Below are positions 715-26,422 of a DNA stretch of 41,230 bases, one piece after another. How positions within the stretch are numbered: the stretch's first letter is position 1; each line of letters begins with the position of its first letter. The position numbers and the translations under genes were made by a program. The stretch comes from Candidatus Eisenbacteria bacterium (GTDB taxonomy: Bacteria; Eisenbacteria; RBG-16-71-46; JASEGR01): the NCBI GenBank assembly GCA_030017955.1, contig JASEGR010000019.1, positions 1 to 41,230 of the forward strand. Direction: 5' to 3'. The notes beneath the pieces are model-generated. The model was given only the letters and a program-made list of their open reading frames with translations. It searched no databases and was not told where the DNA came from.

Positions 715-784
715 GTAACTTCTTATTTTTCAATGTGCGCCGTGGAGGAGTCGAACCTTCGACCTACTGATTAAGAGGTAGCTC
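715..784 (-). repeat. tRNA-Lys 3'-half fragment A (att-like scar)
   Basis: Positions 735-777 match the intact tRNA-Lys at 8425-8497 from the anticodon loop to the 3' end with one mismatch, in the T stem. The 5' half of the tRNA is absent. The match continues outside the tRNA into sequence shared with fragment B: GTAAC..CTTATTTTTCAA before it and GAGGTAGCTC after it. This is the form expected of an attR-type scar left when a tyrosine-recombinase element inserts at the 3' end of a tRNA gene. It is the outermost of three such fragments. Confidence 0.8.
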
Positions 785-804
785 CTTTCGGGCGCTCAAA
801 GCTG

Positions 805-879
805 CTACATCCTTCTAAATCCTACTATTTGGTGAGCGAAAACCGCGCCCGACCTACTATATCCTTCTATATCTTACTA
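805..879. repeat. Pair of 23-bp direct repeats beside fragment A
   Basis: CTACATCCTTCTAAATCCTACTA-like sequence at 805-827 recurs at 857-879 with a few changes, a 52-bp spacing. About 10 bp further on comes GTGCACAAAAAGAGCACAG (from 889), which is also found beyond fragments B and C. Paired direct repeats next to an att core are typical of integrase arm-binding sites; that role is inferred. The rest of 619-974 shows no gene. Confidence 0.45.
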
Positions 880-974
880 AGTACGAAGTGCACAAAAAGA
901 GCACAGTTGGCTTGACCGAGTTGAGCCAAACCAAGCACCGAGCGAGAATGCAGTGCTGTGACATTCCAGCCGTG

Positions 975-2978
975 TCATTTTAGGATGAGCATCTTCTTTA
1001 CACTCACAAAGGGCTTATCTCCACTTGCGGCATCCGGCGCCACCGAGAACCGGTATGTATAGATTCCGCTCGGAAGATTGCCAGCGTCAAACTGCACAGA
1101 TTTCACTCCAGCGCTTTCGATCCCATCGACAAGAGTTGCAACCTCATGGCCAAGAATGTCGAAAACTCTCAGCGTGACATGCTGTCTTGCGGGGAGCGCA
1201 TAACTTATCACTGTGCTTCGCCCAAATGGATTGGGGCGGTTTTGGCAAATGATATTGTCTGAAGCTTCAATCTTTCGCACGGCGACGAAACCTGCCGTCG
1301 ATTCCTGGCCGTTCAGGTCCACTGCGTCCAATCTGTAATCTACAAACGACTCGCTGCCGGGCCACCTATCATAGTACTGATATTCAGTGCCGTCCTTTTC
1401 AATCTTTGCCACAAACTTCCAACTGCTCTCGCCATACCTCCTTGAATACAATCTGAAAGCTGCCAACTTATCAACATAGTGAATACTCCAACTGATAACG
1501 GCGCGACCTTCGAGATATTCACCATGGAAGTCCACAACTGTCACCGGTGACGTACCGCCTACGATGGCGCACACATCCTGAGCATAGATGTCACAGTTTG
1601 CCCCGCTCCGGTAGTCCTCCCACGCTATGACGGCGCCCGTTGAACCATCGCTGACAATAGCCGGATTCGTCTGGGTGTTTGCTGCAGTGGAGATGGCGAC
1701 GCCGTTTGCAGCCCACTGGACAACCCCGGATGCGTCGATGCGCTGAGCATAGATGTCGTAGTTTGTTCCGCTCCGGTAGTCTTCCCACGTGATAACAGCG
1801 CCTCCGGATCCATCGCAAATAATGGCCGGCACATCCTGTTCGTTTCCGGCTGTTGAAACAGGAGCACCGTCTGCCGTCCATTGCACAACGCCTGATGAAT
1901 CAATGCGCTGGGCGTAGATGTCCGAGTAGACCGCCCCGGACCCGGCTCGAAGGTCTGCCCACGTGACGATTGCGCCTCCCGAACCATCACTGACGATAGC
2001 CTGGCCGGACTGGCTATTTTGTGCTGTTGAGACAGCGACGCCGTCGGTAGCCCACTTGGCACCGCCCGATCCACTGACGCGCTGCGCAAAGATATCCTCG
2101 TCTGTGTTCCGGGTGTCCCGCCATGTGATGATAGCGCCGTCCGAGCCATCCCTCACGATTACTGGGTCGTACTGGCCGCCCGCTGCTGTCGTGACGGCGA
2201 CGCCGTTTGCAGTCCATTGGACTGCGCCCGATGCATCGATGCGCTGCGCATAGATATCCATGTTTCCGTTCCGGGAGTCCCGCCATGCGATGATTACTCC
2301 TCCTAAGCCGTCACTCACAGGTGCGGGATCGTACCGGTCGTTCGCCCCTGTCGTGATGGCAACTCCGTCGGCGGTCCACTGCACAGCGCCCAATGCGTCA
2401 ATATGCTGAACATAGATTTGTGTGTTTGGCAGGCTGCGATAGTCATACCAAGTGATGATGGCGCCGCCCGCCCCATCGGCGGCAATGGCTGGCTTCCACT
2501 GGCTGTCTGCAGCAATGGAGATAGGGACGCCGTTTGCAGTCCATTGGACAACGCCTGACGAATTGATGCGCTGTGCATAAATATCCCAGCTTGCGTTCCG
2601 GAAATCCCGCCATGCGATGACGGCGCCTCCTGAGCCATCGTTCACGAGCACAGGATCGTACTGGTCGAATGCGGCTGTTGAGATGGCGACGCCGTTTGCA
2701 GTCCACAGGGCGACACCTGACTCATCAACACGCTGGGCATAAATATCGTAGTCCGCGCCGCTCCGGTAGTCACGCCACACAATGATGGCGCCCCCGGAAC
2801 CATCGCTGACTATCGCTGGTTTGCGCTGCTCCTGGGTAGCCGTGCACACCGCAACATTCACGGCAGGGTCTCCAGGCCACTGAGCCAGAGATTCATGCGG
2901 CACAAGGAGAACGGAGAAAAGCAGAAATCCCGCTGAACGGCGATGGCCGAATGCGAGGCGAGGAACGATTCGTCTCAT
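975..2978 (-). CDS. Secreted eight-repeat protein with FlgD/T9SS-type C-terminal domain
   Basis: The start at 2978 is chosen because a strong AAAGGAGG lies 7 bp upstream; a longer frame has no such signal. The 667-residue product opens with a signal peptide (basic, then GFLLFSVLLVPHESLAQ). It then has eight repeats of about 54 residues built on P-x-I-V-x-DGSGGAII-x-W-x-D-x-R...DIYAQRI-D-x-SG-x-VQW-x-A-x-GV, resembling beta-propeller blades. A fibronectin-III-like segment follows. The last 90 residues are a FlgD-like or type IX sorting domain: QNRPNPFGRSTVISYALP, then VTLRVFDILGHEVATL, LPSGIYTYRF and a basic KKMLILK end. It is probably exported and anchored at or released from the outer membrane; ligand unknown. 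A broken relative lies divergently at 3581-5476 on the other side of tRNA fragment B. Repeat architecture and export are confident; function is unknown. Confidence 0.85.
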   Translation of the reverse strand: MRRIVPRLAFGHRRSAGFLLFSVLLVPHESLAQWPGDPAVNVAVCTATQEQRKPAIVSDGSGGAIIVWRDYRSGADYDIYAQRVDESGVALWTANGVAISTAAFDQYDPVLVNDGSGGAVIAWRDFRNASWDIYAQRINSSGVVQWTANGVPISIAADSQWKPAIAADGAGGAIITWYDYRSLPNTQIYVQHIDALGAVQWTADGVAITTGANDRYDPAPVSDGLGGVIIAWRDSRNGNMDIYAQRIDASGAVQWTANGVAVTTAAGGQYDPVIVRDGSDGAIITWRDTRNTDEDIFAQRVSGSGGAKWATDGVAVSTAQNSQSGQAIVSDGSGGAIVTWADLRAGSGAVYSDIYAQRIDSSGVVQWTADGAPVSTAGNEQDVPAIICDGSGGAVITWEDYRSGTNYDIYAQRIDASGVVQWAANGVAISTAANTQTNPAIVSDGSTGAVIAWEDYRSGANCDIYAQDVCAIVGGTSPVTVVDFHGEYLEGRAVISWSIHYVDKLAAFRLYSRRYGESSWKFVAKIEKDGTEYQYYDRWPGSESFVDYRLDAVDLNGQESTAGFVAVRKIEASDNIICQNRPNPFGRSTVISYALPARQHVTLRVFDILGHEVATLVDGIESAGVKSVQFDAGNLPSGIYTYRFSVAPDAASGDKPFVSVKKMLILK

Positions 2979-3258
2979 TGTTTGGCCTCCTTTGGATGAA
3001 GAGAAAAAACTACTTCGAGAACTCGTTACGATGAGAATGCGCAACCTCCACCATGCGAGAGGAGGAGCCAGCTAACAGCGTAGCACAGCAAAGTGTTATC
3101 TGAGAATCAATAGAATTGGCTGCTCAGTCTTCTTGACTTTCGGGCGGAAGGTTTGGCTCAGCGCGAGAAATCCAGAAAGGCTACCTTCAGCATACTCCTA
3201 CCGATACAAGGTGCACAAAAAGTACACATTCTCGGGCAGCTTGGGGATTGGCGACTCC

Positions 3259-3328
3259 GTAACCACTTATTTTTCAAACTGCGCCGTGGAGGAGTCGAAC
3301 CTCCGACCTACTGACTAGGAGGTAGCTC
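3259..3328 (-). repeat. tRNA-Lys 3'-half fragment B (att-like scar)
   Basis: Positions 3280-3321 repeat the tRNA-Lys 3' half (T arm intact, two changes in the anticodon-loop region). The flanks match fragment A: GTAACCACTTATTTTTCAA before, GAGGTAGCTC after, then a CCACAAAAAGAGCACAGT stretch. An extra GGTGCACAAAAAGTACACA copy lies just to the left, near 3209. It separates two divergently oriented secreted-repeat genes. The rest of 2979-3580 holds only this scar and a promoter. Confidence 0.8.
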
Positions 3329-3382
3329 ACACAAGTCCACAAAAAGAGCACAGTGGGAACGCTCCTCACCTGCAGTGCACAA

Positions 3383-3411
3383 TTGACAATTGACTCTATT
3401 TGTGCTATGTT
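3383..3411 (+). promoter_or_regulatory. Promoter for the broken repeat-protein gene
   Basis: TTGACA at 3383-3388 and TATGTT at 3406-3411 are separated by 17 bp, with a TGC extended -10 immediately before the second box. Transcription would start near 3418, giving a leader of about 160 nt before the ATG at 3581. It lies between tRNA fragment B and the gene, so the cassette carries its own promoter. Confidence 0.5.
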
Positions 3412-3580
3412 TTTCAAGCACTTAAGCCGCCATGGTTTCTAGCGCAGACCAGAGATGAGGGCAAGTCGCATTAGCCGCGGTTTCTTCTCGCCGTGCCTGC
3501 CTTAGGTCCACGACGATCTTTTCAGTCCAGAAAAGGCCATTCTTCACCAGTTGGAGAATTCTGTGAAAGGAGAAGGAGTC

Positions 3581-5476
3581 ATGACACATTTCTCGTTTGC
3601 TTCCCAGATTCGCACCATCACCCTCTTCACATTTGCTGCAGCGTTCCTTGTGATTGGCACCGTGTCTCAATCCTATGGCGAATGGTCAGGTAGTCCAAAC
3701 GTCAATACGCCGATCTGTACTGCTTCGGGCGGTCAGACCGACCCAAAAATCATTGGTGACGGCGCTGGCGGCGCCATCATCACGTGGTATGACAACCGCA
3801 GCGGAAGCTATGACATCTACGCCCAACGCATCAACGCTTCAGGCATTGTCCAGTGGACCGCAAACGGCGTCGTAATTTGTACAGCAGCGACCTACCAATT
3901 CAACCCGACCATCGCCAGCGACGGCTCAGGCGGAGCCATTATCACCTGATCGGACGGACGGAACGGAAACTACGACATCTACGCCCAACGCATCAACGCC
4001 TCTGGCACTGTCCAATGGACTGCCAACGGAGTCGCCATCTCAACCGCCGCAGGAGAACAATCGTACCCTATCGTCGTCAGCGACGGCTCTGGCGGCGCTA
4101 TCATCACCTGGCAGGACTCCCGCAGCGGAACAAACTGGGACATCTACGCGCAGCGCATCAATGCATCAGGCACTGTCCAATGGACTGCCAACGGAGTGGC
4201 CATCTCAACCGCCGCAGGAAGCCAGTTGAACCCGATCATCGCCAGCGACGGCTCAGGGGGCGCCATCATCACCTGGTATGACGCGCGCAACGGAACAAAC
4301 TGGGACATCTACGCGCAGCGCGTAAACTCATCCGGCACTGTCCAGTGGACTGCAAACGGAGTGGCCATCTCAACCGCCACAGGAAATCAACAGTACCCCA
4401 CCATCGCGAGCGACGGTCAGGAAGGAGCAATCATTACCTGGTATGACTACCGCAACGGAAATGACGACATTTACGCACAGAGAGCGGACAAGTATGGGAA
4501 CTTGAATCCCAACCCGCACATCTTATCCGTCAAAGATGTGACAAACGATCAGGGCGGGAAAGTAAGGCTGACATTTCAAAGAGGGGTTGACGACACATTG
4601 ACATCCGCAAGACCGATCGTGTCGTATGGAGTGTGGAGAAAAATACCACCGGCGCTCGCGGCACAACGCGCAAAAACGGAATTCCGGGCGCCCGCGAATG
4701 ACACGCTTGGAGTGTTATATGATTTCATCGTCAGTGTCCCGGCTGTGCAGTCTCCGAAATACAACGTGGTCGCTCCCACGTTTGAAGACTCAAGTTCATC
4801 CGGAATCCACAGACTCACATTCCTCGTTACGGCTCACACAGCCACTCCAAGCATATTCTACATATCCCCTGCCGAGAGCGGCTATTCGGTTGACAATTTG
4901 CCGCCGCTTCCACCTGCAAACCTTGCAGGAAGTCTCGCCTCTGGGAATTTCGTCCTCCATTGGAATCCCAACCCAGAAGATGACCTCGCAGGCTATGAAG
5001 TCTTTCGAAGCTTTGTGCCCGGGTTCAACCCTGACACTATGATTGCGCTTGGATCGACTCGGGACACTTCATTCACTGATGAGGACCTGGCAGAGGGTAA
5101 AATATACTACTACGCGCTCAGGGCCTCAGACATACACGGGAACATAAGTCTCAAGAGCAGCGAACTGCAGTTCATAGCGGGGTCCACGAGTGTTGACAAG
5201 ATAAAGAAGTCTACACGGTTTGCCGTCTATCAGAACCATCCAAACCCGTCCAGCTCTGGGACAGTGATAAAGTACGAACTACCAGGGATCGAGCACGTGA
5301 GTGTCAGGGTGTACGATATGGCCGGGCGGCTCGTGGCGACTCTTGTGGATGAAGAGCAGGATGCCGGAGTCAAGCTGCTCGAGGTCAACACTGGCAATCT
5401 GCCGAGCGGCATCTACTCGTATCGCTTGATTGCGGGGCAAAACGTCAGCGTGAAGAAGATGGTGGTCCTACGATGA
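3581..5476 (+). pseudogene. Secreted five-repeat protein interrupted by one TGA
   Basis: The reading frame is open from the ATG at 3581 (GGAG about 5 bp upstream) to 5476 except for one TGA at 3947-3949. That codon sits exactly where the conserved Trp of the repeat motif GGAIITW belongs, so a TGG has become TGA. Read through, it would give 631 residues: a signal peptide, five repeats of about 54 residues closely related to those of the 975-2978 gene, two fibronectin-III-like domains, and a FlgD/T9SS-type C-terminus (YQNHPNPSSSGTVIKYELP, LPSGIYSYRL, KKMVVLR). The repeats are nearly identical at DNA level, suggesting recent internal duplication. Other genes here end in TGA, so the codon is a normal stop. 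The product is therefore truncated after about 120 residues unless read-through or a sequencing error is involved. Confidence 0.85.
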
Positions 5477-5647
5477 AGTATTAGCAGGTCAATCGCCATG
5501 GCTCGGTCCGGCCCGGCAAACAGTCACAAGCTGGCAACTGACACGTGAGGTCGTTCAAGGTGATATGGGCACCACCATGGTCCGGCATTATGTCCGTAGC
5601 AGGATCCGGAATACTTATGTTCACCCTCTCGCAGAAGGAGGCATGTG

Positions 5648-6619
5648 ATGAAACTCAGTACCGCTCTTGTCGCCCTGGCCATTATTCTAGTGGCTTCGGT
5701 TTCGGCTGATGCCGGCACCTGGCGCATAAAGCCTGATGGAACCGGCGATGCTCCGACAATTCAGGCGGGGATTGACCTGGCGGCTCCGGGTGACATTGTC
5801 CTGCTCGCGGATGGAGTGTACGAGGGTGACGGCAACAGGAACATTGACTATCACGGCAAGCCGATCACTGTCCGCTCAGAGAGTGGAGATCCGTCGACCT
5901 GTGTTATTTCGGTGAATGGGGCCGGAACTGGATTCCTGTTCTATTCTGGAGAAGGTGCTGGATCGGTACTCAAGGAAGTAACGATCCAGGACGGACTCCT
6001 CACCTGGGGTGGAGGGATCCTCTGCCAGAACTCCTCGCCTTCCATAGTAGGCTGCGCGTTTTACCGGAACATGGCCAACGCGGGCGGAGCGATTTTCTGC
6101 ATGGGATCGGCCCCAACTGTGACAGGTTGTACGTTTATCGGAAACTGGGCTCAGCTGGCTGGCGCGATATTTTTCGCGGGCCCGAGCCCTGCAGTCTCTA
6201 CCGTGACGGGCTGTACGTTCTCAGAAAACCACAGTGACGCGGGGGGAGCAATACACTGCGAGGGTATCGCCCTGACACTTGAGAAGACGGTCATTGCGTT
6301 TGGCAGTGCGGAAGGCATCAGTTGCGGATCCGGCGGCAGCGCCGCGCTTACATGCTGCGACGTATTCGGAAATGCCGGAGGCGACTGGGTCGGCTGCATC
6401 GCGGATCAGAACAACATCAACGGCAACTTCTCGGCTGATCCCATGTTCTGCAGACGCACGTATGGCGACGTCTGCGTAAACTACGTTTCCCCCTGCGCAC
6501 CCGGCTATCATCCCTACGGATATGACTGCGGCGTCATCGGCTCTCACGGAGTCGGCTGCGACCATCCCACAAATGCTTTCCCAAAAACCTGGGGAGCGAT
6601 TAAAGCAATGTACAAGTAG
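5648..6619 (+). CDS. Secreted Pmp-like right-handed beta-helix protein
   Basis: The ATG at 5648 lies 6 bp after AAGGAGG; a GTG one codon earlier is too close to it. The 323-residue product has a signal peptide (LSTALVALAIILVASVSADA), then an IQAGIDLAAPGDIVLLADGVY segment typical of pectate-lyase-fold proteins. Parallel beta-helix coils follow that carry paired GGAI/GGGI and FxxN motifs (FYRN, FIGN, FSEN), the signature of chlamydial-type polymorphic membrane protein repeats. The C-terminal 100 residues are cysteine-rich. The very end, TWGAIKAMYK, closely matches the end of the unrelated lamin-tail protein at 17977-18900. It belongs to the same cassette as the broken repeat gene. Likely a cell-surface or released protein; substrate unknown. 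Confidence 0.8.
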   Translation: MKLSTALVALAIILVASVSADAGTWRIKPDGTGDAPTIQAGIDLAAPGDIVLLADGVYEGDGNRNIDYHGKPITVRSESGDPSTCVISVNGAGTGFLFYSGEGAGSVLKEVTIQDGLLTWGGGILCQNSSPSIVGCAFYRNMANAGGAIFCMGSAPTVTGCTFIGNWAQLAGAIFFAGPSPAVSTVTGCTFSENHSDAGGAIHCEGIALTLEKTVIAFGSAEGISCGSGGSAALTCCDVFGNAGGDWVGCIADQNNINGNFSADPMFCRRTYGDVCVNYVSPCAPGYHPYGYDCGVIGSHGVGCDHPTNAFPKTWGAIKAMYK

Positions 6620-6652
6620 TCGGCGATTCTACAAGGTAGAAGAGTCGAGCTT

Positions 6653-6699
6653 GGGCAGCAGTTCGAGGAGGCCTTTTCCCGAATCGCTGCCCTTTGTCT
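6653..6699 (+). terminator. Rho-independent terminator after the beta-helix gene
   Basis: GGGCAGC at 6653-6659 pairs with GCTGCCC at 6686-6692, and the stem extends inward to about 13 bp with two mismatches. It is followed by TTTGTCT. It lies 34 bp after the stop of the beta-helix gene. Confidence 0.6.
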
Positions 6700-6734
6700 G
6701 ATGTCAGGTTTGTTGTGATGCGCGGTATGTCTTT

Positions 6735-6807
6735 TGCGCCGTGGAGGAGTCGAACCCCCGACCTACTGATTGAGAGGTAGCTGCTTTGAAGTGCACAAAA
6801 GGAGCAT
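6735..6807 (-). repeat. tRNA-Lys 3'-half fragment C (att-like scar)
   Basis: Positions 6735-6776 match the tRNA-Lys 3' half with a change in the T stem and one in the anticodon loop. Beyond it the sequence continues GAGGTAGCTGCTTTGAAGTGCACAAAAGGAGCATAG, paralleling the outer flank of fragments A and B (split here only for description: GAGGTAGCT, then GTGCACAAAA, then GAGCA). It marks the boundary between the beta-helix cassette and the ATPase cassette. No gene is visible between 6808 and the promoter at 7067. Confidence 0.75.
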
Positions 6808-7066
6808 AGCGGGGCTGACCGCGTACGGTCAGACCGGGCGGCGCATGCGATGTCCCTGGGCCGGCCGGGATTGCCTCTCCGGGACACCAGGCCCAGTTCA
6901 ACCAGCCCGGTCAATTTCCACTACTTCGCGGCTACGCAGTAGCAGACCCGCCACGAAATAGTGGCCTCATGAACCCGGGTCGATGTGAGATCTGCTGTGG
7001 TTTCCCCCACAACTGTCGCTGTTCGATTCCCAAACATTCTAAGGAAACGTATCCTGAGAATTGATC

Positions 7067-7095
7067 TTGACAGTCCAACACGTGTCATGTAAACT
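7067..7095 (+). promoter_or_regulatory. Promoter of the ATPase gene
   Basis: TTGACA (7067-7072), a 17-bp spacer containing the palindrome ACACGTGT, then TAAACT (7090-7095). It lies 33 bp before the GTG start of the ATPase gene, so this cassette also carries its own promoter. Confidence 0.5.
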
Positions 7096-7128
7096 GAATT
7101 TCTGAAATTCAATTATCCAGGAGGGTGA

Positions 7129-8325
7129 GTGATTAGAAGAACACTGGCAAGGAAACTTCGTGAAGCGTCTGCGCGATTTCCCGTGGTGTCGGTGACGGGA
7201 CCGAGGCAATCAGGCAAAACAACGCTTGTAAGAGCCGAGTTCAAAAGTCATGCCTACGTTTCTCTTGAACTCCCAGACCAGAGAGCGTTCGCTCTCGAGG
7301 ATCCAGAAGGTTTCCTGAAACGATTTGATGGCCCTGTTATTCTTGATGAAGTGCAAAGAGCTCCCGAATTGTTCTCCTACATCCAGGTAGTTGTGGATGA
7401 GCGAGATGCACCCGGCCAGTTTATTCTCACTGGCTCGCATAACTTCCTTCTGTTGCAGAGTATTTCTCAGTCGCTGGCGGGCAGGTGCGCGGTGCTCAAC
7501 CTGCTGCCTTTCTCTCTTGCCGAACTTCAGGGGAGACCACCCATCGCGCTTACGAATTTCGGCCGGGGAGTACCAAAGAGGACGAAAATCCCCTCGCGCA
7601 GTCTTGTCGAGTACCTTTTCACCGGGTTCTATCCGAGAATACACGACAAGAATCTGCCGCCTCGTGACTGGCTGGGGAGCTATTATCAGACTTATCTTGA
7701 ACGTGACGTTAGAAATGTGCTGAAAGTCGGAGACCTCGAGACGTTTGGGAGATTTATCCGGCTCTGTGCGGGCAGAAACGGACAGTTGGTCAATCTTACG
7801 GGTCTGGCTTCTGACTGCGGAATTACGCACACCACCGCAAGACGCTGGATTTCGGTCCTTGAGGCGAGTTTCATTATTCTTCTACTCAGACCGCATTTCA
7901 AGAACTTCGGCAAGAGGCTCATCAAGAGTCCAAAACTCTTCTTCTTGGACACAGGCCTGCTGTGTTTTCTGTTGCGGATTCAATCGGCAGAAGAACTGCA
8001 CCACCATTCGGCCAGGGGAGCAGTATTTGAGAGCTTCGTGTTGTCTGAGCTCTATAAGAATTTTGTGCATCGCGGTGAGCAAGCCGCGCTCTATTTCTGG
8101 CGGGATGCAGGCGGTCACAAGGTTGACATGCTGATTGACGTTGGAAAGGACTTGATTCCGGTCGAAGTGAAGTCTGCCCAAACCGTTGCATCTGATTTCT
8201 TCCGAAGCCTCAAGTTCTGGCGTGAAATCAGCGGCTCGGTTGATAATCCCGCGGCACTTGTTTACGGGGGAGAACAGGCCTTCAAGCGCTCGGGCGTTGC
8301 AGTTTATCCATGGTCCATTCTGTAG
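7129..8325 (+). CDS. AAA-family ATPase with DUF4143 C-terminal domain
   Basis: The GTG start at 7129 follows AGGAGG. The 398-residue protein has a Walker A motif GPRQSGKTT (residues 24-32), a Walker B VILDEVQ (70-76), a sensor-like FILTGSHN (about 97-104) and the YLERDVRN segment opening the DUF4143 domain. A winged-helix-like region (LASDCGITHTTARRWISVLE) and a restriction-endonuclease-like end (PVEVKSAQ) follow. Length and order match the widespread ATP-binding/DUF4143 family, common in accessory DNA and of unproven function. It fills a 1.7-kb cassette between tRNA fragment C and the intact tRNA-Lys. Family assignment is secure; biological role is unknown. Confidence 0.9.
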   Translation: MIRRTLARKLREASARFPVVSVTGPRQSGKTTLVRAEFKSHAYVSLELPDQRAFALEDPEGFLKRFDGPVILDEVQRAPELFSYIQVVVDERDAPGQFILTGSHNFLLLQSISQSLAGRCAVLNLLPFSLAELQGRPPIALTNFGRGVPKRTKIPSRSLVEYLFTGFYPRIHDKNLPPRDWLGSYYQTYLERDVRNVLKVGDLETFGRFIRLCAGRNGQLVNLTGLASDCGITHTTARRWISVLEASFIILLLRPHFKNFGKRLIKSPKLFFLDTGLLCFLLRIQSAEELHHHSARGAVFESFVLSELYKNFVHRGEQAALYFWRDAGGHKVDMLIDVGKDLIPVEVKSAQTVASDFFRSLKFWREISGSVDNPAALVYGGEQAFKRSGVAVYPWSIL

Positions 8326-8424
8326 CGGTGAGTAAAATTAATCAAGGCACTGAGTAATTTGTTGCCTCTGCAGATGAGCCTATCCGGCTGGTCTTGAATC
8401 GAGCGCTAACATTCATCTTCAAAG

Positions 8425-8497
8425 TGCGCCGTGGAGGAGTCGAACCTCCGACCTACTGATTAAGAGTCAGTTGCTCTACCAATTGAGCTAACGGCGC
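8425..8497 (-). tRNA. tRNA-Lys (anticodon CTT)
   Basis: A complete 73-nt cloverleaf: acceptor GCGCCGT/ACGGCGC, D arm GCTC/GAGC, anticodon stem ACTGA/TCAGT with loop CTCTTAA, T arm GGAGG/CCTCC, discriminator A. CCA is not encoded, unlike the other three tRNAs in the window. Three copies of its 3' half lie downstream in the same orientation (A, B, C), which makes this the probable attachment site of the island. Confidence 0.95.
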
Positions 8498-8573: not shown

Positions 8574-8840
8574 CTACCGAGGTAACTTCTCTCGAAGCTT
8601 TTCTTGTAACCACAGATTTATCAACGTACCCGAAGAGACTCCACGCTTCCTCGCTAGGACCCTAAGTCGTTCCAGTAGAGAACTATCAATCGCGAAGTAG
8701 GTGGCCTCAGATTCAATCTCAACATCAAACCGCGCAGGGCTTGTCTTCGACCAAACCCGAGAGAGATCATGGTCATCCCAATACTCGGCAGTCTCACGAT
8801 ACGACGATGCCCTCGAGAGACTCACGCTATTTCTCTTCAT
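8574..8840 (-). CDS. BrnA-like (CopG-type) antitoxin
   Basis: An 88-residue protein whose second half (YFAIDSSLLERLRVLARKRG, then TLINLWLQEKL) has the ribbon-helix-helix form of BrnA/CopG antitoxins and shares the TLINL[YW]L signature with the BrnA at 69-290. The ATG at 8840 is preceded by GAGG at good spacing; an upstream GTG at 8858 is possible. It overlaps the end of the toxin gene by 14 bp. Expected role: neutralise the adjacent toxin and repress the operon. It lies just upstream (5' side) of tRNA-Lys. Confidence 0.75.
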   Translation of the reverse strand: MKRNSVSLSRASSYRETAEYWDDHDLSRVWSKTSPARFDVEIESEATYFAIDSSLLERLRVLARKRGVSSGTLINLWLQEKLREKLPR

Positions 8841-9120
8841 ATCGCTTCCTCTCACCACGCGTCATATCACGCGCGGACAGAATCAACGCCTGCCTGCCCC
8901 CTTTGTACACAAAGAAAACGATGAGATAGCGTCCAGGCCCAGTTCGTCCCAAAGCAGCGTACACATTCTCTCCCGGCCTGTGACCCTTCTCAACATACCT
9001 GAACCTCGGCGAACCATTCAGAACTTCCCTCACCTCTTCCTGTGTAACCTTGTGTCGCGCGAGCAGCTTCTCCGCTATGTCCCCAAGCCACACAACGGTT
9101 GAAATCTTCATTCCAGCCAT
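8827..9120 (-). CDS. BrnT-like toxin
   Basis: A 97-residue protein of the broader BrnT group: WLGDIAEKLLARHKVTQEEV at the N-terminus, a central RPGENVYAALGRT strand pair, GRYLIVFFVYKGG, and the closing LILSARDMTRGERKRYEEK, which matches the (S/T)ARDMT-x3-RRY end of the family. It is only distantly similar to the other BrnT at 287-583, so the pair is not a recent local duplication. It precedes and overlaps its antitoxin. The start at 9120 has a TGGGGA close upstream; a Met three codons later is possible. Confidence 0.75.
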   Translation of the reverse strand: MAGMKISTVVWLGDIAEKLLARHKVTQEEVREVLNGSPRFRYVEKGHRPGENVYAALGRTGPGRYLIVFFVYKGGRQALILSARDMTRGERKRYEEK

Positions 9121-9256
9121 TCCCCATCAGAATATATGTTACCACACACCTACGTGCGCTGCAGCTTCCATACCCAGCCCGAAAGACCCTCGGATGAGGT
9201 TTGGGTTGAATCGAAATCACCGACGGGAGTTATCTCAGCACGAGGGAGCGGCGCAA

Positions 9257-9688
9257 TCAGAACGGAATGTCGTCGTCTCCCACTGCCTGCAGCTCTTCCA
9301 CATTGTACTCCTCTGCAGGCGGACTCTCCTGCCGCGCTTCTCCCGCGCCGGCCATGTCCGGACGTCCGAGCATCTGCAGAGTAGTCGCAGTTATCTCAGT
9401 CGTATAGCGCTTGACGCCTTGACTATCCTGCCACGAACGCGTTTGAAGCCTTCCCTCGAGATAAACTTGCTTTCCCTTGCTCAGATACTGACTGCATATA
9501 TCGGCGAGTTTTCCCCATGCGACTATTCTGTGCCATTCAGTCCGCTGCCCCTTCTCGCCGTTCTTCGAAGTCCAGGTCTCGTTAGTCGCAATCCTGAAAC
9601 TTGCCACTGCAGTGCCTGCCGGAGTGCGTCTGAGCTCCGGGTCGCTTCCCAGATTCCCTACGAGAATCACTTTATTAACGCTCGCCAC
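9257..9688 (-). CDS. ssb: Single-stranded DNA-binding protein
   Basis: This 143-residue SSB binds single-stranded DNA during replication, recombination and repair. The OB fold is complete: [16 protein letters not shown] at the N-terminus, [16 protein letters not shown] in the middle and [10 protein letters not shown] later. A short acidic tail ends in DDDIPF, the conserved tip that recruits partner proteins. The start is a GTG at 9688 with GGAGG about 9 bp upstream. It stands alone here, divergent from the tRNA cluster. The usual rpsF/rpsR neighbours are absent, so it may be a second copy. Confidence 0.95.
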
Positions 9689-10190: not shown

Positions 10191-10328
10191 AATGTCTTTT
10201 CGCTGTCTGAGCATGCAGGGAGTTGAAGCCGACCCGAGCGCCTCCGGTGGAGGATGAAGCGAGGGCGGCCGGCTTCGGCGGAGAACTCGGCAGAGTTCGG
10301 GGGAGAAGAACTCCCGTCGTCCACCCCA
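10172..10328 (+). repeat. Duplicated 3' end of tRNA-His flanking a 119-bp insert
   Basis: ACTCCCGTCGTCCACCCCA, the 3' end of tRNA-His including CCA (10172-10190), recurs exactly at 10310-10328. The 119 bp between the copies is GC-rich, has no gene, and contains several CCGAG/CTCGG and GCC/GGC inversions. This is the footprint of an insertion at the tRNA 3' end or of a small tandem duplication, just upstream of the HEPN/MNT pair. Confidence 0.75.
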
Positions 10329-17976: not shown

Positions 17977-18900
17977 TTACCGATAGATTGCCTTAATCGT
18001 ACCCCAAGTGCTGTTCTCGACAGCAGTAGGTCCACCGGCTATACAGCCATTGCCACTAACAAGAGTCTCGGCACCTTCTGCCCCAACTCTCTGGCGAGTG
18101 CCGGCACCGCTTGCGGGGACAACAAATCCCTGGGTGAGCGGGCCAACGTCATTGTTGTAGCATGACGCAACCACATCTGCATCCGGCCCATCCTGACAGG
18201 TCGCGGTTGTCTTCAGCACCGGCCAGTTGGAACCTGAACCGGAGCCCCAGTAAACCAGGTCAACATCACAGACGAGGTCCGAGATTTGATCCCAGTAGAA
18301 CAGCCACACGAACTCTGCCGTATTGGTATATGAGCCATAAGTCGGATAAGGCGCAGGCTTGTTTCTGGCCACGTCCACCATCGGGATGGCGGTAGTAGGG
18401 CCACCAGCATTGAAGAACATGAAGTCAGCATCTACACCAGCGCAGCGCTTGAACCTGCCGCCGTCCACAGCTATTGTCTTGTAGGCGCCGGGCAGTATGA
18501 TTGCGCCATTCGGGAACCGCATGGCAAAGTCTGACCCGGTCAGAAATATGTCTATGGTTCCCAGCACAGGCAGAGTGTAATACGTATTGACGTCTGACAA
18601 ATAGTAATTGGACAGGTCAACGGGCTCCGAGGTCGGGTTGTAGATCTCAACGAACTCTGTCGAATCTGCGCACGTCGCGCTGTTGAGACCACGATAACCA
18701 ATCTCGCTTAGAAGAAGATGGGCGCCAGCCAAAACAGGACCTGTGCTCGGTGTGGCGGGTGCTGCGGCCGCCCACTGAGCGCCCTTGTGATTCTCGGTCG
18801 TCTCATCGTGCCCGCCGATAATCTGCTGTGCCACTGCGGGTGCCGCGAGAGCAAACACCAGTCCTACAATCGCCAATGATGTCATAAGAAACTTATGCAT
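17977..18900 (-). CDS. Secreted lamin-tail-domain protein
   Basis: A 307-residue exported protein. The ATG at 18900 is chosen for GGGAGG upstream and the clear signal peptide that follows (FLMTSLAIVGLVFALAAPAVAQ). Residues about 60-190 form a lamin-tail domain (LLLSEIGYRG, ADSTEFVEIYNPTSEPVDLS, NYYLSDV, ILPGAYKTIAVDGG). LTD domains in bacteria are beta-sandwich modules on secreted nucleases and surface proteins. No catalytic domain is present. The extreme C-terminus, STWGTIKAIYR, is nearly the same as that of the beta-helix protein at 5648-6619, which suggests a shared C-terminal targeting tag. Single-gene unit with its own terminator. Confidence 0.85.
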   Translation of the reverse strand: MHKFLMTSLAIVGLVFALAAPAVAQQIIGGHDETTENHKGAQWAAAAPATPSTGPVLAGAHLLLSEIGYRGLNSATCADSTEFVEIYNPTSEPVDLSNYYLSDVNTYYTLPVLGTIDIFLTGSDFAMRFPNGAIILPGAYKTIAVDGGRFKRCAGVDADFMFFNAGGPTTAIPMVDVARNKPAPYPTYGSYTNTAEFVWLFYWDQISDLVCDVDLVYWGSGSGSNWPVLKTTATCQDGPDADVVASCYNNDVGPLTQGFVVPASGAGTRQRVGAEGAETLVSGNGCIAGGPTAVENSTWGTIKAIYR

Positions 18901-19265
18901 TTTCAATTCCTCCCTCCGATGACAGAATCTAAGAAACTTCCAGCTACACTGCCTTAACGACAAACGCGCTGTTGTCATCACCTCCTGTCCACATTGAATA
19001 GAAATAGCGCCGCGCGTCCCTATGCCATACGCATGTTTCCCTAACTACCAGATACTACCATAGATAAGGGCCTTGTGTCAAGCGCTAGCTTGCTGGCGAG
19101 CTTGCAGTTTCCGGGGAGATACTGGCTTTGCTTGGGCAGAGTAAGTGTCCGCTCAGTCTGGCTGAATTGCCACAGGTACTCAACTTCTCTCAAGCCATTC
19201 CCCAGAAATGACGATTAAACTGTAAGAACCTCTTGCGAAGTCGGGTAGTCTGAGGCGTCAGGCTT

Positions 19266-24659: not shown

Positions 24660-26422
24660 AACTCCTGCCGCTTTTTGCATCGCTCTGTATCCTACTTTGG
24701 ATGACTGTTTCTGCCGTCTCGCAGGAGAATGTTTCCACTTCCAGCGAGAGCTACGAAAGGGGCATCAAGCTTCTTGAAGAAAAGCGTTTTGCGGAAGCAT
24801 CGGGTGTGCTCAAGGAAGCGCTAGCCAATGGCGCGGACTCAAGCAAAGTCGCGAGGCCGCTTGCAGAGGCGCTCAGGTATTCAGGAGACATCGACGGCGC
24901 TTTCCAGCTTTACGGCTTTCTCGCTGCACGGGACTCAACTGACATGGACTCCCGCTTTTGGGTTGCGACTTTCCTAAGATGGGAAAGCAAGTTTGACCTT
25001 TCGATTCCGGAATATGAGAAGCTCCTCAAAGCAATGCCCACCCACGGCGATGCTCTCTTTGGAGTGGCCCTTGCCCTTAACGCCACAGGGAGGAACGATG
25101 AGGCGATTCGAAGACTTGAAGAGCTGAAGCGTTCTGTTCCCAAGTACCTTGACGCAAGGATGGCCCTGGCGCGCTTCTACAGAGAAAAGGGCAGAGACGT
25201 CGATGCGATGAAGGAATACACGGAAATTCTGAGCATCTCCACAACCTATGCTCCCGCAAGAGACGAGCTTGGTCAGCTCAGGCGCGAATTATCCCCGGCA
25301 TTTGAACAGAACCTACTTGTCTCGGAGTACCGCACAATCGAGGGCAGACAGGATCCCAGAAGCTACAAAATCAGGTACTTTCTTTCAGAAGCGCGAACAA
25401 CAGGAACATATCCAATCAACAGCCGCACGAAGATCAGGGCGGAAACAAAAAGAGGAAGCCTGAGTCAGGAGAATCCTACATTTGGATTCACCTACTATGA
25501 TTTGAGCAGCGCTGAAAACGTTCTTGGATTCGAGACAAAGGTTCGGAAACTTGGCTCGATCCAGGCAAAGGCATCTATCATCGAATACACGAACAGAGGA
25601 AGCGCTGCATCGCTCTCCGGAAAAAAGAGTTTTGGCACGTTCAACGTTGATTTGAGGTCGGACGGCGGCCGCTTTTCCGCCTCAGCAGAGGGAAAACCGA
25701 TTCTGGTCCGGGGGGCCAGGAACGATGCCTACTGGGGAATCTACAGAATCAGAACTTTCAAAGCATCAACCATGACCCCGTATCCAAAAGGCAGGTTTGA
25801 TCTCTCAGGCATGTTCTCGAAATACTCGGACAAGAACCAGATCGGAAGCGGATCAATCTCCGCCGAGCTCGGCCAGAAGAATTACTGGATCAGGGGTCTG
25901 ATTTCCAGATGGCCTCTCGAACTCAGAGGGCTCCAGGACAAGAGAATGCGATTTGGATACGTGACAACAACTGAGGCGAGGTCAAGGTACGGATTCGCCA
26001 GGGGTGTGAATCTGTGGACGACTCTTTGGCTGAACAGTTATTGTGACGCAAACAGGGAGGCAGGCGCATTCATCGAATTGAACCGCGAGTTTTTCTCGAG
26101 TGCCCTGGTCGTGAAAGCAAGATTCAAGAAGACTTCCTACACGAAAATCGCTTCAGACTATATGGCAATTGGCGAAACGACCGGCTCTCTTTCCGTCGAA
26201 TCGAGGGGAAAATTGCATTCGATTGTCGCTTACTATGTCGAGGTCGAAGAATTCCTGAGGAAGGACGTGATAACCTCCTCTTCAAGGGGAGAGAATGTGT
26301 ACTTTGAGTTCAAACCTGTCGGCAAGTCGCGATTAGACTTTCGCCTTGGCGGTACGGGTTCTTCAAACACGATTGGAGAGAGAGGCGGCCGGGTCGAAGG
26401 GTTTGTGGGAATAGTTTTCTGA
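24656..26422 (+). CDS. TPR protein with outer-membrane beta-barrel (YaiO/PgaA-like)
   Basis: A 588-residue exported protein. Signal peptide (LLPLFASLCILLWMTVSAVSQ), then about six TPR units to residue 215 (SYERGIKLLEEKRFAEASGV, ALRYSGDIDGAFQLYGFL, ALALNATGRNDEAIRRLEEL). A long beta-rich region follows with alternating strands (NYWIRGLISRWPLELRG, VEGFVGIVF). The last residue is Phe, as expected of a Bam-inserted barrel. TPR followed by a barrel is the plan of the poly-GlcNAc exporter PgaA, and YaiO-type barrels have the same order. The start at 24656 overlaps the glycosyltransferase stop, so synthase and exporter are coupled. An export pore for the polymer is the likely role. Confidence 0.85.
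   Translation: MKLLPLFASLCILLWMTVSAVSQENVSTSSESYERGIKLLEEKRFAEASGVLKEALANGADSSKVARPLAEALRYSGDIDGAFQLYGFLAARDSTDMDSRFWVATFLRWESKFDLSIPEYEKLLKAMPTHGDALFGVALALNATGRNDEAIRRLEELKRSVPKYLDARMALARFYREKGRDVDAMKEYTEILSISTTYAPARDELGQLRRELSPAFEQNLLVSEYRTIEGRQDPRSYKIRYFLSEARTTGTYPINSRTKIRAETKRGSLSQENPTFGFTYYDLSSAENVLGFETKVRKLGSIQAKASIIEYTNRGSAASLSGKKSFGTFNVDLRSDGGRFSASAEGKPILVRGARNDAYWGIYRIRTFKASTMTPYPKGRFDLSGMFSKYSDKNQIGSGSISAELGQKNYWIRGLISRWPLELRGLQDKRMRFGYVTTTEARSRYGFARGVNLWTTLWLNSYCDANREAGAFIELNREFFSSALVVKARFKKTSYTKIASDYMAIGETTGSLSVESRGKLHSIVAYYVEVEEFLRKDVITSSSRGENVYFEFKPVGKSRLDFRLGGTGSSNTIGERGGRVEGFVGIVF

Follow-up and report, generated by a model that had tools for sequence, protein, structure and literature searches.

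Bacterial collections of single-gene cassettes at a fixed site are best known from integrons, and the tycheposons of Prochlorococcus are small tRNA-linked mobile elements with variable cargo that typically carry a tyrosine recombinase. The closest known class to the locus described here is formed by arrays of cis-mobilizable elements (CIMEs). As in ICESt1/CIME, these keep the attachment sites attL and attR, stack in tandem and have no integration or transfer genes (PMC5704250). They are decayed relatives of integrative elements and usually lie in tandem with an integrase-bearing one, and tRNA-Lys(CTT) is a known target of tandem elements in Streptococcus agalactiae (PMC5704250). The present locus lies in a 41,230-nt stretch of DNA from Candidatus Eisenbacteria bacterium (contig JASEGR010000019.1, hereafter the window, or C19), where an intact tRNA-Lys(CTT) gene is followed on its 3' side by a stack of small cassettes separated by copies of the 3' half of that gene. 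We explain it by site-specific tandem accretion of integrase-less cassettes with a tyrosine integrase most likely supplied in trans, an explanation that we consider probable as a whole and in which the site-specific accretion itself is well supported.

No array cassette has a recombinase, which separates the array from tycheposons with their element-encoded tyrosine recombinase at a tRNA gene. Like CIMEs, the cassettes of this genome have attL/attR-type sites at both ends and no integration or transfer genes; unlike in CIMEs, every cassette examined here is integrase-less, and such cassettes go down to 0.6-0.8 kb and occur across genera with three types of site. In Dehalococcoides, tandem ssrA islands lie between short repeats of a single RNA gene. 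They offer a precedent for tandem islands without an integrase, 15 of them having no integration module, but they differ in the serine recombinase at the ssrA 3' end, in that many keep the module and in their many reductive dehalogenases (PMC3146451). Integrons and clusters of attC sites lacking integron-integrases (CALINs; PMC11389934) resemble the array in cargo-only cassettes at a fixed site, in toxin-antitoxin and defence cargo and in a recombinase possibly acting in trans, but the array has neither attC nor a linked intI, its boundaries are double-stranded tRNA-Lys halves with arms, and its genes run in both directions. A preliminary description of the window had suggested a new family of tRNA-borne gene cassettes. 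Integrase-less arrays bounded by att sites are already known as CIMEs, and what stands of that suggestion is a distinct variant, marked by small size, cross-genus recurrence and recurrent cargo.

The tRNA-Lys array and its attachment sites

The window belongs to a draft genome (G000) of 3.1 Mb in 248 contigs. The comparison set comprised 47 genomes of the phylum, of one class, among which this genome has no relatives of its own genus or family. The features of the array in the window are as follows (position, strand, feature).

1-85 and 86-91, no strand: end of an IS21-like insertion sequence and 6-bp duplication CCCATT, matching C150:3012-3017 (read from the sequence)
86-734, minus: window part of cassette D, with BrnT toxin (287-583) and BrnA antitoxin (69-389); runs on into contig C150
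707-734, minus: tRNA-proximal end of cassette D, GTAAC..CTTATTTTTCAATG; same block at 3251-3278
735-777, minus: fragment 1, tRNA-Lys 3' half, putative old attR (alignment; BLAST 735-775, 41 nt, 97.6%)
778-911, minus: long arm region of cassette C, with GGTAGCTC, TCCTTCTA-type direct repeats and palindrome GTGCACAAAAAGAGCAC at 888-904
778-3279, minus: cassette C, 2.5 kb, secreted beta-propeller with a tail of type IX secretion system (T9SS) type, coding sequence (CDS) 975-2990 (minus)
3211-3227, minus: additional arm palindrome GTGCACAAAAAGTACAC, close to the end of cassette C that faces the tRNA
3280-3321, minus: fragment 2, tRNA-Lys 3' half, loop CTCCTAG (alignment; BLAST 3280-3314, 35 nt, 100%)
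3322-3357, minus: shortened arm of cassette B, with a copy of the palindrome (3335-3351)
3322-6734, plus: cassette B, 3.5 kb, secreted beta-propeller (3581-5476) and beta-helix protein (5645-6619) (Pfam, tblastn)
6735-6776, minus: fragment 3, tRNA-Lys 3' half, loop CTCTCAA (alignment; BLAST 6735-6771, 37 nt, 97.3%)
6777-6813, minus: shortened arm of cassette A, with a copy of the palindrome (6791-6807)
6777-8423, plus: cassette A, 1.7 kb, AAA_14/DUF4143 ATPase, CDS 7129-8325 (plus)
8424-8497, minus: intact tRNA-Lys(CTT) (ARAGORN; 77 bits against Rfam tRNA), putative insertion target and attL, which would be rebuilt at every insertion
8460-8466, minus: anticodon loop CTCTTAA, putative 7-bp crossover region, where identity between tRNA and fragments stops

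The three tRNA-Lys 3' halves of the preliminary description were all recovered by ARAGORN and BLAST, in the orientation of the intact gene and on its 3' side. Chance matches of such length are not expected in 3.1 Mb, and a scan with the 44 tRNAs of the genome gave, besides tRNA-Lys, a fragment longer than 22 nt for tRNA-Glu only. The count of three was too low, as contig C150 holds at least a fourth half beyond an insertion sequence (C150:2806-2846, 41 nt, 95% by BLAST). The terminus of C150 reads TTTCCCATT followed by TGTTGAAC, and the start of the window reads GCTGAACA followed by CCCATTTC; read from these letters, the two termini are opposite ends of one IS21-like element with the duplication CCCATT, which places C150 next to the left end of the window. 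The array then runs from cassette E through the C150 fragment, cassette D, the fragment at 735, cassette C, the fragment at 3280, cassette B, the fragment at 6735 and cassette A to tRNA-Lys, and thus has at least five cassettes of ~0.8-3.5 kb. At its far end C150 runs into a repeat present at least 40 times in the genome, so that the array may extend further and the left neighbour of C150 was not found. A dispersed repeat resembling a miniature inverted-repeat transposable element, TGCCTTATGAAACGCCCTGCATTTCGTAAAGTTATTTCTGGGACGGCACACTAG, stands at the left end of C150 and in at least 39 other places, often at contig ends.

All four fragments break at one position of the anticodon loop, their identity with the tRNA ending at CTCTTAA, which in the tRNA gene is flanked by the symmetric anticodon stem ACTGA/TCAGT, as in an anticodon-loop site of a tyrosine integrase. 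The recurring similarity, first described for the tRNA halves, continues past the tRNA into shared attachment-site sequence: beyond the break the aligned fragments have GGTAGCT in common, which is absent from the tRNA, followed by an arm that is long and has TCCTTCTA repeats at 735 and on C150 (778-911 is 77% identical to C150:2839-2988), is shortened at 3280 and 6735, and finishes in both forms in the palindrome GTGCACAAAARGAGCAC. With at most one mismatch, this palindrome has five occurrences in the genome, every one inside the array, and it was found in none of the 46 related genomes (one mismatch allowed). The extra copy at 3211-3227 may mark an older, eroded site. The tRNA-proximal ends of cassettes D and C also match each other (family D4, 88% over 78 nt including the fragment). 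The common break, the shared GGTAGCT and the palindrome limited to the array identify the fragments as attachment sites, whose anatomy points to tyrosine-integrase sites in a tRNA anticodon loop.

Fragments of this kind, being near-identical repeats, might also come from segmental duplication or from homologous recombination via the tRNA repeat, without a site-specific recombinase, and in the genus g16 among the relatives the repeat even takes in the tRNA terminator. The segments between fragments are, however, not copies of one another, being unrelated except for paralogous cargo, while the break always falls in the anticodon loop and an arm that is not part of the tRNA is shared; such an origin is very improbable. 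We give the least credence to the proposal that the fragments are kept as regulatory or processing signals instead of being insertion scars. It would fit the 95-100% identity at which some fragments persist in several genomes, but each of the four fragments here differs from the tRNA-Lys half at one or two positions, fragment and arms together fit the anatomy of an attachment site, and no orthologous fragment position was seen among the relatives.

Cassette contents

The cassette genes are cargo only. One of them is no longer intact: the cassette B propeller gene (3581-5476), which encodes a Por_Secre tail, is interrupted by one in-frame TGA at 3947-3949. The cassette C protein, whose NCBIfam Por_Secre_tail match lies above the cut-off, is 55% identical to this propeller, and its next best match in the genome is at 33% over ~390 residues. 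Cassette A encodes an ATPase matching Pfam DUF4143 (E 8.9e-46) and PADLOC PDC-S01 (E 9.3e-111). The toxin-antitoxin pair of cassette D was assigned by Pfam (BrnT, E 6.7e-26; BrnA, E 1.5e-8), and this cassette is ~0.8 kb long once the IS21-like insertion sequence is subtracted. Cassette E, on C150, is at least 2.7 kb long and carries a DUF4143 ATPase, a SocA/HTH protein and a small open reading frame (ORF). The Pfam assignments include no integration or transfer genes among the cargo.

Parallel arrays and empty sites in related genomes

Fragments in the relatives were sought with a profile of the four fragments, and the tRNA-Lys of the respective genome was then compared with the loci found. 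Fragments of the tRNA-Lys(CTT) 3' half occur in at least six further genomes, which belong to five genera and two families: G027 (five), G020 (three, one at 87.5%), G038 (two), G034 (two, one of just 26 nt), G032 (one) and G045 (one). Those of G039 and G035 are doubtful, and the match in G014 covers 22 nt only. Contigs C68 and C410 of G032 overlap within its single fragment. No fragments of other tRNAs were found at the same loci. The relatives' fragments are mostly 45-46 nt long with the same break point, and the segments that they bound measure 0.6-6.3 kb.

Two further types of flank were recognized, both lying before the fragment in the tRNA sense. Type X has GCGACAATCGCTTCGTG beside the fragment in G027, G038, G032, G034 and G045 and in degenerate form in G035; it was found at seven or more sites, most of them with the palindrome AAACGGGACNNNTGGTCCCGTTT ~117-152 bp from the break. 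Type Y, with CCCCGATTCGTCCCGGTTCG, was found in G027 and G020. The long-arm palindrome of the window lies at a similar distance from the break (roughly 110-140 bp by coordinates), so that at least three site types of comparable layout share one target.

Secreted proteins with FlgD_ig or Por_Secre tails (Pfam) recur in G038, G032, G027, G034 and the array of the window, and other cargo of the relatives includes a carbonic anhydrase (G020), a carboxylesterase (G034) and an AraC/PocR regulator (G027). The cassette C protein is 46% identical over ~500 aligned positions to a protein of the G027 array, above its best match in its own genome outside the array. Both are repeat proteins, so that the likeness is no more than suggestive. 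Secreted beta-propellers are frequent among the relatives' cargo as well, and their recurrence suggests a diversification of cell-surface proteins.

In eight genomes of several families (G001, G005, G007, G009, G013, G015, G021 and G026), tRNA-Lys(CTT) lies 15-226 bp upstream of the transfer-messenger RNA (tmRNA) gene on the same strand, which leaves no room for a cassette, and this is probably the ancestral, empty state. In G023, a 6.8-kb insert without a detectable fragment separates the two genes. The tmRNA gene of the window's genome was expected at the far end of the array but lies on C119, and there is no tRNA fragment less than 3.5 kb away; the ancestral order was therefore not recovered in this genome. 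The genomes of g16 are syntenic on the upstream side of tRNA-Lys, and each has a different content on the downstream side, which together with the empty sites marks an integration hotspot. The recurring stacks at one tRNA gene suggest that this hotspot is shared and that the enzyme is encoded elsewhere.

The preliminary description would have been refuted by fragments at fixed positions in every relative and no empty site; the eight empty relatives show that this is not the case. The insertion of one element after another at the 3' end of the tRNA gene, proposed there, is strongly supported by the common break, the arms, the differing cargo, the empty sites and the parallel arrays. The order of the steps was not proven by homology between arrays, since those of G032 and G038 are syntenic on the upstream side while their cassette proteins are only 37-47% identical.

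Search for an integrase

A six-frame search across the genome detected no tyrosine integrase (Phage_integrase), not even a remnant, on C19 or C150, which confirms for the array the absence of an integrase reported earlier. A profile search found none at the relatives' loci L206-L225 either. Pfam scans detected no recombinase in 20 ORFs around the relatives' arrays and no serine recombinase among the cassette genes, no genome-wide search for the latter families having been made. There is no intI on C19 or C150, and a decayed integron-integrase piece lies only on the unrelated contig C123. No integrase-bearing element was found in tandem at the same site in the assembled array, whose far end runs into the repeat.

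The six-frame search gave nine Phage_integrase matches, all outside C19 and C150, among them Xer-like ones on C8 and, by score, C71, a trio on C133, those on C20 and C110, and partial ones on C140 and C123. The C20 integrase adjoins tRNA-Thr and that of C110 is at tRNA-Glu, where the element has a different arm motif, TGTCCAAATAGTGACTAT, at its two ends. The profile built from these integrases detects even the decayed C123 copy. Among later loci of relatives, it gave one match, at the tmRNA 3' end in G007, and thus works in relatives as well; this integrase was rejected as that of the arrays because it lies outside any tRNA-Lys array.

Attachment-site patterns retrieved no carrier from IMG/VR, where broader patterns gave apparent chance matches to coding or repeat sequence without a tRNA-Lys fragment, and BLAST searches of phage and plasmid collections with the fragment region returned mainly tRNA genes. 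One scan of genome contigs for the arm palindrome gave 11 matches, apparently by chance; one of these, located beside tRNA-Val on a contig from Nitrospiraceae, could represent a related arm.

The main competing explanation is that integrase-bearing islands (integrative mobilizable elements, satellites or prophages) stacked at tRNA-Lys and afterwards lost the integrase and other mobility genes by deletion, which would make the cassettes classical CIMEs. Decay is the accepted origin of CIMEs (PMC5704250), and it would account for the two shortened arms and the broken cargo gene; the genome also has an integrase-bearing element, at tRNA-Glu, that was split by an insertion sequence. No cassette examined has an integrase, however, even among tiny ones with intact genes (0.6-1.1 kb in G020, ~0.8 kb here), and cassette D with its toxin-antitoxin pair is too small to have held an integrase that eroded. 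Furthermore, the long arm is kept in two cassettes of the array and the type X flank across genera, as one would not expect of random leftovers. Because all cassettes are without an integrase, the smallest are too short to contain remnants and the arms have been preserved, we favour mobilization in trans and regard decay as unlikely, though the choice between the two is less certain than accretion itself.

Several observations weigh against the favoured explanation. The genome yielded no helper integrase whose site matches, its tRNA-linked integrases being those of C110 and C20; the mobilization in trans proposed earlier is plausible. In the relatives, the search for an integrase covered only the loci. 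The array meets the repeat of at least 40 copies at its far end, and unassembled DNA could encode an integrase. The crossover bases are altered and the arms shortened in fragments 2 and 3, and with the broken gene of cassette B this indicates that part of the array may be dead.

Proposed mechanism

In the accretion that we favour, recombination of tyrosine-integrase type in the anticodon loop of tRNA-Lys(CTT) would insert each cassette, and the incoming cassette would bring along a tRNA 3' half and so restore the tRNA gene. Each new insertion would displace the earlier cassettes outward, their tRNA halves remaining as scars. The cassettes would consist of an attachment site and cargo only (secreted beta-propellers, toxin-antitoxin pairs, DUF4143 ATPases), and the recombinase would most likely come from a helper element or an unlinked gene and act in trans. 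Accretion is based on the geometry, the common break, the shared arms, the differing cargo, the lack of an integrase, the empty relatives and the parallel arrays; the enzyme class, the action in trans and the order of insertion, with the newest cassette beside the tRNA gene, are what we infer from them.

A more specific and only tentative proposal is a tRNA-anchored system of this phylum similar to an integron, in which a dedicated, unlinked tyrosine integrase would capture circles of cargo alone at tRNA-Lys(CTT). The tRNA gene would take the place of attI and the tRNA half plus arm that of attC, and the system would exchange mainly secreted surface proteins, toxin-antitoxin pairs and defence genes. 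A layout similar to that of integrons, on a tRNA gene and with conventional attachment sites, recurs in several genera of this poorly known phylum with cassettes down to 0.6 kb. Confirmation of a trans-acting integrase would mean that the capture of genes by elements without a recombinase of their own is more general than thought, and would make the interval between tRNA-Lys and tmRNA a simple marker for such arrays.

Other elements in the genome

Three tandem tyrosine recombinases on C133, a 3.8-kb contig, resemble a recombinase-in-trio element. C110 (1-870) and C138 (1-1992) form a composite tRNA-Glu site whose integrase gene is split by an IS21-like element; it continues with a 42-nt tRNA-Glu fragment and a segment that encodes a 364-aa protein and ends in an 18-nt tRNA-Glu fragment. 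C123 (288-441, 3116-3269 and 3360-3848) has a partial match to the integron integrase model TIGR02249 (61.8 bits, far below the cut-off) beside two 154-nt attC-like repeats that are 99% identical, and is probably a decayed integron.

A second tRNA-linked element was found in the form of islets of ~95-120 bp that directly follow the genes of tRNA-His, tRNA-Thr and two tRNAs-Ser on their downstream side. Their body, GAAGCCGACCCGAGCGCC...GAGGGYGGCCGGC, is conserved, and their last 18-20 nt repeat the 3' end of the respective host tRNA exactly, as a target duplication would. Copies lie at 10191-10328 of the window, at C3:43560-43653 and at C28:23289-23386 and 25449-25546, with half copies at C20:36855 and C65:14648. 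Among the 47 genomes, they were found in this one only, and the window copy has no Rfam match.

Between tRNA-Lys and tRNA-Pro, positions 8574-9688 of the window contain a second toxin-antitoxin pair (CopG/BrnT) and ssb, where some relatives (G005, G013) have only ~220-250 bp. Finally, seven ORFs in 413 kb of the genome share the short C-terminal motif (S/T)WGxIKAxY(K/R), two in the window (17977-18981 and 5645-6619, the latter the beta-helix gene of cassette B), two on C110 and one each on C119, C20 and C5. Some of the products are apparently secreted, and the motif is possibly a sorting tail.

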